Shown: positions 59,837-62,272 of the stretch, one piece after another
How positions within the stretch are numbered: position 1 is the first letter of the stretch
Layout: each line of letters begins with the position of its first letter
DNA from: Gammaproteobacteria bacterium
Lineage (GTDB): Bacteria > Pseudomonadota > Gammaproteobacteria > UBA6429 > Thiohalophilaceae
DNA length: 64,000 nt
Direction of reading: 5' to 3'
NCBI GenBank assembly: GCA_029881995.1
Contig: JAOULO010000012.1
Span: 1-64,000 of the forward strand
Translations under genes and position numbers: made by a program
The notes under the pieces: model-generated
The model's database searches: none
Told to the model about the DNA's origin: nothing
Seen by the model: the letters and a program-made list of their open reading frames with translations, nothing else

Positions 59837-61084
59837 TCAACGATACAAAATCGTCTCCCGATGCCCAAAGGGTTTCCAGCTCGGTGCTATTACATTGGGC
59901 ATAGTCGATCGATTCAATAATCTGGCTGGTGCTACAGCAAACTCACCATAGCGCTGGTTAATCAGGTCGATGACATGATTGGCAATGTCCCGATTAGGAA
60001 GATTGTGCTCTGCAAACAGCTGTAACTGGCCATTCTTGAGTTGAGGATCCAGGGCACCGACATGTACCTGGTGGATGCCTTCGCCATCCCAACAGTACTC
60101 CAGCACCTCTTTACATAAATCATAAATAATCAAACCATCATCTATCGGTATGGGGGCCTGCATTTTTAATCCTAACCACGACTCCGTTGCGCGCAGGCCT
60201 ATGCTAAAGGTCTGCGCCACCATGTCATGGCGACGCAGACGGGCACCGACCTTTTCACTCATGTGCAATAAATAGGTCAGTAGCACCTGGTGGCTTCGAG
60301 TATTGGGTGGAATCACCTTGCCATGCCCGATACTCTTGGGCGGTGCCACCGTTGTGTGTACCTTCTCCGGATCTTTTCCCTGGCACATATACCAGATGCG
60401 TCGTCCCGGGTTACCGAAGCGTTGCCCCAACACACCGATAGGCAGGTTCTTCATGTCTCCACAGGTATACACACCGCGCGCGGCAAGAAAAGCACCGATA
60501 CCTTTATTAATACCACACAGTTCCATCACGGGGACATTGCGCAAGGTCTCTTCTGCCTCCCAGGGTAAAACAATAGTCATACCATCGGGCTTGTTGAGCT
60601 TGGCCGCATACTTGGCCGTGGTCTTGTCTCCACTCAGTCCCACTGAACAGGGCAGTTTGGAAACTTCAACAACCCTGTCTTTTGCCATGCGGGCAATCTT
60701 TTCCGGTGCGCCATAGAGTTTTTGTACATGGGTAATATCAAGAAAGGCCTCATCGACTGAAAAGATTTCAATATCCGGTGTGATGTCCTGCAAGGACTCC
60801 ATGATATTGATCGAGACTTCGGCATAACGCTCGGGACGAGAGGGTCGTTGTATCAACCCCGGACAAAGTTCTTCTGCTTCACGCAAACGCATACCGGTTT
60901 TGACACCCTTGCGTCTTGCCTCATAGGATGAAGTGATAATGCAGGTGCCCTGCATGCCATTGGTGACACCAACGGGTTTACCATTGAGTTCGGGAAAGTC
61001 CAGTTGTTCGATAGAGGCAAAGAAGGCATTCATGTCCACCAGGACAATGGCGCGCTCCCAGAACAGGGAAGGATCGTGGGCCAT
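59837..61084 (-). CDS. Y-family translesion DNA polymerase (DinB-like)
   Basis: 415 residues. Catalytic acids are in LVDMNAFFASIEQLD and IFSVDEAFLDI. The little-finger and thumb domains are typical, with HhH in VMELCGINKGIGAFLAARG. A clamp-binding QLQLF lies at ~353-357. Replicates past DNA lesions. Its gene is the third after lexA and a VOC gene on the same strand, which suggests SOS control, although no second LexA box was found directly before it. It could be a dinB2/dinP paralogue rather than the main Pol IV. Confidence 0.9.
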   Translation of the reverse strand: MAHDPSLFWERAIVLVDMNAFFASIEQLDFPELNGKPVGVTNGMQGTCIITSSYEARRKGVKTGMRLREAEELCPGLIQRPSRPERYAEVSINIMESLQDITPDIEIFSVDEAFLDITHVQKLYGAPEKIARMAKDRVVEVSKLPCSVGLSGDKTTAKYAAKLNKPDGMTIVLPWEAEETLRNVPVMELCGINKGIGAFLAARGVYTCGDMKNLPIGVLGQRFGNPGRRIWYMCQGKDPEKVHTTVAPPKSIGHGKVIPPNTRSHQVLLTYLLHMSEKVGARLRRHDMVAQTFSIGLRATESWLGLKMQAPIPIDDGLIIYDLCKEVLEYCWDGEGIHQVHVGALDPQLKNGQLQLFAEHNLPNRDIANHVIDLINQRYGEFAVAPARLLNRSTMPNVIAPSWKPFGHRETILYR

Positions 61085-61194: not shown

Positions 61195-61599
61195 TTACTG
61201 GCCCTGTGATACAAGGTTACCTTTGTCTAACAATTCCTGCTGATTCTTTAGTGCATGACCAATAATCAGCATGTTTCCATTATTATCCCTGACGCGAAAA
61301 TCTTTGCTGCCATAATCCCGCTCGGCAAAGTCGCCAACAAACTCAAGCCCCTTTGCTTGCCACTCTTCATAAACAATATCTGCATCCTCAACCCCAATAA
61401 CACATACACCCGTGCCAGCATGTTGCTTGCGGCCTTCACCAAACTCGACCACAACATCGCCTCGCCTAACTACACAATAAGATGGATTTTTCCAAAGCAC
61501 GCTTATTGTAAAGCCCAGTTTTTCTTCAAAAAACTTTGCGGTCTCTGCTGCACTCCGAACTGGTAAAATAGGATTACCCCATAAAAAGTTATCACTCAT
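61195..61599 (-). CDS. VOC (glyoxalase/bleomycin-resistance) family protein
   Basis: 134-residue single VOC module. NPILPVRSAAETAKFFEEKL starts the first beta-alpha-beta-beta-beta unit, and GVCVIGVEDADIVYEEWQAK and RVRDNNGNMLIIGH the second; the last contains the typical metal-site Asn/Gly turn. Similar proteins bind bleomycin-like compounds or act as dioxygenases. Placed between lexA and the dinB-like gene on the same strand. Confidence 0.88.
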   Translation of the reverse strand: MSDNFLWGNPILPVRSAAETAKFFEEKLGFTISVLWKNPSYCVVRRGDVVVEFGEGRKQHAGTGVCVIGVEDADIVYEEWQAKGLEFVGDFAERDYGSKDFRVRDNNGNMLIIGHALKNQQELLDKGNLVSQGQ

Positions 61600-61622: not shown

Positions 61623-62219
61623 CTATCGATAAGATCGTAACTGTCCAACCAGCACTCCCTGGATGCGCACCCGTTCCGGTTCAAACACCATGGGTTGCAT
61701 ATCGGGGTTCTCCGGGCTGAGTTCGATACGCCCGTCGGCATAACGTTTGAAGCGTTTGAGGGTTGCCTCTTCCTCATCAATGAGGGCGACGACAATGTCA
61801 CCGTAATCGGCCTTGTCCCTGGCCTCGATGATGACAATGTCGCCATCCATAATTCCCACCCCGATCATGGACTCGCCTTTGACTTCGAGAGCATAGGTGC
61901 GGTCACCAACAAACATCTCGGAGAGATTGATCTCTTGTTGATCGGGAATGGCTTCAATAGGGTGGCCAGCGGCGATACGACCCACCAATGGAAGGGTCAA
62001 TGGGTTTTGGAGGGAATCAGTAAGTCGAATACCCCGCCAGCCACGTTCGGTTTGCTCCAGCTTGCCCTTCTGCTTGAGGGACTGCACATAGCGATGTACC
62101 GTCCCCTTGGAGTTGATGCCAATGGCCTGGCCGATCTCAGTCATAGTCGGCGCCTCGCCATGGCGGGCAATATAGTCCCGGATGAACTCCAGCATTTTGT
62201 TTTCCAGGGATGTAAGCAT
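61623..62219 (-). CDS. lexA: LexA repressor, SOS regulator
   Basis: About 198 residues from ATG 62219, where the usual N-terminus LTSLENKMLEFIRDYIARHG begins with GGAG 9 bases upstream; earlier in-frame ATGs at 62234 and 62276 are disfavoured by operator and promoter positions. The winged helix-turn-helix TMTEIGQAIGINSKGTVHRY has an alphaproteobacterial-like recognition helix. The autocleavage site is AAGH (Ala-Gly), the active Ser is in GESMIGVG, and the Lys is in ATLKRFKR. Represses DNA repair genes and is cleaved with RecA. Confidence 0.93.
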   Translation of the reverse strand: MLTSLENKMLEFIRDYIARHGEAPTMTEIGQAIGINSKGTVHRYVQSLKQKGKLEQTERGWRGIRLTDSLQNPLTLPLVGRIAAGHPIEAIPDQQEINLSEMFVGDRTYALEVKGESMIGVGIMDGDIVIIEARDKADYGDIVVALIDEEEATLKRFKRYADGRIELSPENPDMQPMVFEPERVRIQGVLVGQLRSYR

Positions 62220-62225
62220 ATAAAT

Positions 62226-62272
62226 GTTCTCCATATGTTCTCTACTATAGAGAACGTTTAGAGAACCGTCAA
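62226..62272 (-). promoter_or_regulatory. lexA promoter with two alphaproteobacterial-type LexA boxes
   Basis: Minus-strand sigma-70 promoter: -35 TTGACG (62267-62272), 17-base spacer, -10 TATAGT (62244-62249). Four half-sites are arranged GTTCTC-N5-GTTCTC-N7-GAGAAC-N5-GAGAAC (62226-62266). Read as LexA boxes, this gives GTTC-N7-GTTC (62226-62240) and GAAC-N7-GAAC (62252-62266). They cover the spacer and the initiation region, a typical autorepression layout. Confidence 0.75.

Follow-up and report, generated by a model that had tools for sequence, protein, structure and literature searches.

A gammaproteobacterial lexA with direct-repeat boxes and its putative translesion-polymerase module

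Which kind of LexA is encoded by a gammaproteobacterial gene whose promoter carries boxes known from another class, and how many genes would such a repressor control? The direct repeat GTTC-N7-GTTC is the LexA box of Alphaproteobacteria, and CTGT-N8-ACAG that of most Beta- and Gammaproteobacteria (PMC8565304, PMC3323433). In the stretch of DNA analysed here (64,000 nucleotides, hereafter the window), the original prediction had placed GTTC-N7-GTTC and GAAC-N7-GAAC as mirror images in the lexA promoter and had seen no CTGT-N8-ACAG; both repeats are indeed found there, and upstream of the window lexA the palindrome is absent. We consider it probable (about 0.8) that this gene encodes an autoregulated LexA of an overlooked gammaproteobacterial lineage, dedicated to a translesion-polymerase module, with its operator binding and RecA-dependent cleavage both predicted from sequence.

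The lexA promoter and its repressor

61623..62219, minus strand: lexA, 198 aa, winged-helix DNA-binding domain followed by an S24 peptidase domain
62226..62242, minus strand: box 2, GAGAACATATGGAGAAC, GAAC-N7-GAAC, which mirrors box 1, 3' of the -10
62244..62249, minus strand: -10 hexamer TATAGT
62250..62266, minus strand: box 1, GTTCTCTAAACGTTCTC, GTTC-N7-GTTC, forming the entire -35/-10 spacer, its position kept in family relatives
62267..62272, minus strand: -35 hexamer TTGACG, 17-nt spacing to TATAGT; TTG(A/C)NN stands just 5' of the repeat in nearly all relatives

Read on the minus strand, the promoter has the order TTGACG GTTCTCTAAACGTTCTC TATAGT A GAGAACATATGGAGAAC ATTTAT ATG, box 2 stretching from just past the -10 to the ribosome-binding site, whose GGAG (62229-62232) lies inside it. 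The GTTC-N7-GTTC cores (62226-62240 on the plus strand and 62252-62266 on the minus strand) both extend to a perfect 17-bp GTTCTC-N5-GTTCTC (62226-62242 and 62250-62266). The bare GTTC-N7-GTTC occurs three times in the window against 1.6 expected, which is not significant, and it was dropped as evidence. The perfect GTTCTC-N5-GTTCTC is found only twice in the 3.53 Mb genome, both copies at the lexA promoter; with up to two mismatches the same genome holds 151 matches versus 142 of the reversed pattern, thus no excess, and among the six boxes with one mismatch five lie inside reading frames and none at a recognised SOS gene.

The protein itself is a LexA repressor according to the curated TIGR00498 model (163.9 bits, cut-off 110.95), carries the Pfam domains LexA_DNA_bind and Peptidase_S24 and aligns over its full length with solved LexA structures, among them that of E. 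coli LexA, with whose sites the Ala-Gly cleavage site (GRIAAGHP), the catalytic Ser (GESMIG) and the catalytic Lys (ATLKRFK) are aligned. Its recognition helix, NSKGTVHR, shares the pattern S-K-x-x-[IV]-H-R with the alphaproteobacterial RSKSGIHR, so that the alphaproteobacterial likeness pointed out before is real locally; it does not extend to the whole DNA-binding domain, which is 25-28% identical to alphaproteobacterial LexA as against 32-34% to canonical gammaproteobacterial LexA. The catalytic domain shows the reverse, with 50-55% identity to LexA of the alpha-group (genomes from another class of this phylum whose LexA has the alphaproteobacterial form) and 36-40% to the canonical gammaproteobacterial proteins. 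Judged by these identities, the window LexA is nearest to the alpha type in its catalytic domain and, the recognition helix excepted, not in its DNA-binding domain. No second LexA, canonical or other, was found in the same genome, where the only other match has 158 residues, is UmuD-like and lacks a DNA-binding domain; no box was detected at the promoter of its gene. Behind this UmuD-like gene stands, in place of umuC, a gene for another protein, possibly of the Mut7-C type, and similar stand-alone UmuD-like matches recur through the family.

Conservation and the gene set under the boxes

Within the window's own family, we compared 27 lexA promoters and counted boxes in 40 genomes. The promoter layout is kept in relatives down to 53% LexA identity, and an exact GTTC-N7-GTTC lies within 250 bp upstream of lexA in 25 of the 27, N6 or N8 spacing being found in none of them over the same distance. 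CTGT-N8-ACAG precedes lexA in 0/27 family members and in 11/16 canonical gammaproteobacterial controls, whereas GTTC-N7-GTTC precedes 19/20 lexA genes of the alpha-group and none of the 16 canonical controls. The named alphaproteobacterium Cereibacter azotoformans, falling within the alpha-group clade, has GAAC-N7-GAAC, and N6 spacing was seen at three LexA genes from a further class of the phylum. Throughout the relatives the spacing inside each box is constant (N7), while the gap between the two boxes is either 6-8 or 13-18 bp, two classes which would differ by about one helical turn. A fixed N7 and a variable gap between the boxes favour each direct repeat as a single binding unit, and the central palindrome GTTCTC-TATAGTA-GAGAAC was rejected as operator on the same grounds.

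Perfect boxes number 54 in the 40 family genomes, compared to one match of the reversed pattern, and 50 of the 54 are sited at lexA or at a gene for a Y-family polymerase. In the window, both this polymerase gene and a smaller one lie downstream of lexA:

59837..61084, minus strand: Y-family DNA polymerase of 415 aa, the module's second gene (PF00817, 4.7e-43)
61195..61599, minus strand: gene of the glyoxalase/bleomycin-resistance fold, between lexA and the polymerase (PF00903, 1.9e-08)

The polymerase has intact active-site motifs (DMNAFFASIE, SVDEAFLD), a clamp-type QLQLF and a C-terminal tail, LINQRYG, resembling the motif similar to the RecA N-terminus that was described for such polymerases (PMC6511836); Pfam DUF4113 was matched only weakly, in the Methylophaga homologue. 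The glyoxalase-fold gene, together with gaps, separates lexA from the polymerase. It was seen at this place in this genome alone among those compared, and it is probably an insertion, since in the nearest relative the polymerase directly follows lexA, with an unrelated gene on the opposite strand behind it. In many relatives lexA and polymerase adjoin. Where they are unlinked, the polymerase has its own box in seven genomes (G008, G009, G012, G015, G023, G030 and G034, with both repeats in G009 and G012); a recognisable box was looked for and not found at the unlinked polymerases of G006, G007, G021, G022 and G032, and no close polymerase copy was found in G016, G026 and G027, which do contain lexA. 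The pairing of lexA and polymerase is therefore not universal.

It should also be considered whether the contig contaminates this metagenome-assembled genome, in which case lexA would not be the host's own. The assembly's contamination estimate of 4.16% and the lack of both lexA and polymerase in one genome of the same genus (G002) would fit, but the closest copy of the polymerase is that of another member of the genus (87%, against 80% in a genome of a different genus), and many other genomes of the family have the locus as well, so that the biological conclusion would hold without the window contig. We regard contamination as very unlikely.

How far the control reaches was assessed with a box matrix built from the boxed promoters of the family and applied upstream of 27 recA, 12 uvrA and 15 recN genes, these three being the SOS promoters scored. 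Most lexA promoters score 24.7-29.1 and background tiles of the window reach 6.2; the best scores are at most 6.2 at recA, 0.8 at uvrA and 4.8 at 14 of the 15 recN promoters. CTGT-N8-ACAG was likewise not found at any of these recA, uvrA and recN promoters. The recA of the genome under study is cut by a contig end with its promoter present, and its uvrA was not found in the assembly, the uvrA promoters scored being those of relatives only. A family-wide scan for the promoter-embedded pattern with up to two mismatches added four sites elsewhere, compared to six for the reversed control. The switched specificity put forward in the original prediction, taken as a genome-wide SOS response with GTTC-N7-GTTC ahead of recA and uvrA, thus finds no counterpart at these promoters, and no wider regulon is seen.

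A LexA acting as global SOS regulator, with recA, uvrA, ssb and others under diverged or weaker GTTC repeats, would have a precedent in the alphaproteobacterial LexA of similar specificity, whose core regulon includes recA, uvrA and translesion polymerases (PMC3323433), and one recN promoter of the family (in G019) does carry a weak box of 15.8 bits. Against the background scores at recA, uvrA and the remaining recN promoters, and with the extra sites of the family scan below their reversed control, we hold such a regulator to be quite unlikely.

In this genome and in about half of the family, recA has a conserved element, GGTNGTAAAAANTATTGACA, that overlaps its -35 and recurs in part further upstream, the other half having a different recA promoter with GTGAAATAATGG. 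GGTNGTAAAAANTATTGACA is present in 17 of the 40 family genomes; it was rejected as the element of a replacement regulon since the matches checked lie at recA.

Under the reading that we prefer, a LexA dedicated to the polymerase module, the repressor would recognise GTTCTC-N5-GTTCTC (hence GTTC-N7-GTTC) and not the CTGT-N8-ACAG palindrome, and one dimer per repeat would cover the promoter, box 1 as its spacer and box 2 as its start region and ribosome-binding site. It would thereby repress itself as well as the Y-family translesion polymerase, either through the operon, with presumed read-through across the inserted glyoxalase gene in the window genome, or through the polymerase's own boxed promoter. 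Upon DNA damage, RecA filaments would promote cleavage of LexA at Ala-Gly and the module would be expressed, with the induced polymerase acting at stalled forks, while recA, uvrA and recN would stay outside LexA control.

Spread of the lineage and its origin

Searching 369 gammaproteobacterial genomes for TTGNNN-GTTCTC-N5-GTTCTC-TA with at most one mismatch returned matches in 50 genomes, as against one reversed match. When 52 sites were read, 38 were found to precede a full-length LexA of the window lineage and one a UmuD-like S24 protein without DNA-binding domain (L317, G686:C163), itself followed by a Y-family polymerase of the type accompanying lexA; at 22 of these 39 sites a match to Y-family polymerases lies downstream. 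Four further sites directly precede such a polymerase and three a helicase of the YprA/MrfA type, in three other gammaproteobacterial families (L310, L334 and L336, the first with both boxes); one site runs off its contig and five look like chance. The nearest solved relative of the L334 helicase is YprA of B. subtilis (7.5e-183), presumably identical to MrfA. MrfA is a mitomycin C repair factor (PMC11194089). The small damage-tolerance module, as we read it, would comprise lexA and the Y-family polymerase, joined in some families by a UmuD-like protein or by a helicase of the YprA/MrfA type.

The LexA-bearing sites come from 25 families in addition to the window's own, that is, from at least 26 gammaproteobacterial families. 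A LexA protein search of the window family and of G038, G040, G044 and G086 revealed no canonical LexA beside the direct-repeat one, and no relatives in viral contigs were returned by the search used. A plasmid of Methylophaga thalassica carries a lexA-polymerase operon with ATTCTC-N5-ATTCTC upstream of lexA (L264), a Methylobacter plasmid has a lexA with GTTC-N7-GTTC, and GATCTC half-sites occur at the second lexA of G020 (L213/L297, G020:C2) and at the lexA of G040 (L080); GATCTC and ATTCTC half-sites keep the N5 spacing of the GTTCTC boxes. LexA homologues with GTTCTC, GATCTC and ATTCTC half-sites form a natural specificity series.

The same collection of sites bears on an alternative to LexA binding, in which a different regulator would use the repeats as its operator or the repeats would belong to the core promoter. 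Promoter function could account for part of the conservation, given that box 1 constitutes the -35/-10 spacer and that box 2 overlaps the ribosome-binding site. The box, however, is found with lexA and with its polymerase partner also where these two lie apart, and it precedes the UmuD-like gene with polymerase and the YprA/MrfA helicases of other families. Its half-site changes from one LexA homologue to another (GATCTC at the second lexA of G020 and in G040, ATTCTC in Methylophaga), and for Alphaproteobacteria a motif of the same type has been described as the LexA box (PMC8565304), all of which makes this alternative highly improbable.

Where did direct-repeat recognition come from? In the trees, a branch with support of 95/82 and 95/84 separates canonical gammaproteobacterial LexA from the alpha clade, the N6 group and the direct-repeat LexAs of Gammaproteobacteria, and a larger quick tree agrees, with 2 of 52 rows near the N6 group. 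The LexAs of alpha type that were sampled make up a clade of their own (100/100), and the gammaproteobacterial lineage lies outside it, not nested within. Constraining this lineage with canonical gammaproteobacterial LexA cost 9.4 log units and was not rejected by the AU test (p 0.19). The proposal of a foreign lexA acquired from Alphaproteobacteria, already raised in the original prediction, draws on the catalytic domain's greater identity to the alpha-group, on this grouping with direct-repeat LexAs (95/84) and on the Methylophaga thalassica plasmid operon, from which it follows that the module can move. The exclusiveness of the alpha clade, the low identity of the DNA-binding domain (25-28%), the presence of the lineage in at least 26 gammaproteobacterial families and the AU result all speak against it, and we judge it unlikely. 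A recent alphaproteobacterial donor in particular is not supported by the trees, because the alpha clade is exclusive and the lineage spans so many families; old shared descent, old transfer and convergence would all be compatible with them.

Taken more broadly, we lean slightly towards the view that a second, widespread LexA lineage exists in Gammaproteobacteria, which would use direct-repeat operators of the alphaproteobacterial type, not occur together with canonical LexA and serve a small damage-tolerance module only; direct-repeat recognition would then be one old trait that Alphaproteobacteria share, and in related copies the half-site would have changed (GTTCTC, GATCTC, ATTCTC) while the architecture stayed fixed. 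As gammaproteobacterial LexA is usually assumed to bind CTGT-N8-ACAG, genomes that carry this lineage could be counted among those without an SOS regulon. The class would offer a different kind of LexA, with a minimal set of targets centred on the polymerase and with recA not among them. Two questions become testable, namely the origin of direct-repeat recognition and what stays of an SOS response reduced to inducible translesion synthesis, and the three half-sites together with their LexA proteins should provide a ready test set for specificity change.

Comparison with known LexA systems

In the literature searched, which left subscription journals mostly outside, we found no description of direct-repeat LexA boxes in Gammaproteobacteria, and their novelty is provisional. 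With alphaproteobacterial LexA, the window protein and its promoter share the direct-repeat box with N7, the S-K-x-x-[IV]-H-R helix and about 50-55% identity in the catalytic domain. They differ from it in the extended half-site, GTTCTC, in the polarity of the repeat in the -35/-10 spacer (GTTC..GTTC here, GAAC..GAAC in the alphas), in a DNA-binding domain of 25-28% identity and in a regulon that would leave out recA and uvrA. A LexA sparing recA has been described in Geobacter and, reportedly, in Bdellovibrio. The Geobacter sulfurreducens arrangement lexA-imuB-C-polY invites comparison, but no imuB-C gene was recognised beside the window polymerase, the middle gene of the window being of the glyoxalase fold, and the Geobacter LexA motif is the palindrome GGTT-N10-AACC (PMC8565304).

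As to other LexA proteins that are unusual for their class, the Betaproteobacteria Sideroxydans and Gallionella reportedly possess a noncanonical LexA, unrelated to the usual one of the class, with a Bacillus-type palindrome and a regulon of ordinary size; the window LexA is likewise noncanonical for its class and has another motif, here a direct repeat in place of the palindrome said to be used there. The tie of lexA to a mutagenesis module recalls LexA2 with its imuA-imuB-dnaE2 cassette in Pseudomonas and Xanthomonas. LexA2 belongs to a different LexA clade, however, the proteins taken as LexA2 by their form (L181, L192, L214) grouping with canonical LexA, and unlike in lexA-imuA-imuB-dnaE2, the window lexA has as its neighbour a Y-family polymerase whose active-site motifs are intact. 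Finally, UmuDAb of Acinetobacter, a gammaproteobacterium that has no canonical LexA, is reported to be a LexA-type repressor of error-prone polymerases (PMC11332147); UmuDAb is derived from UmuD, whereas the repressor of the window is a full LexA by TIGR00498.
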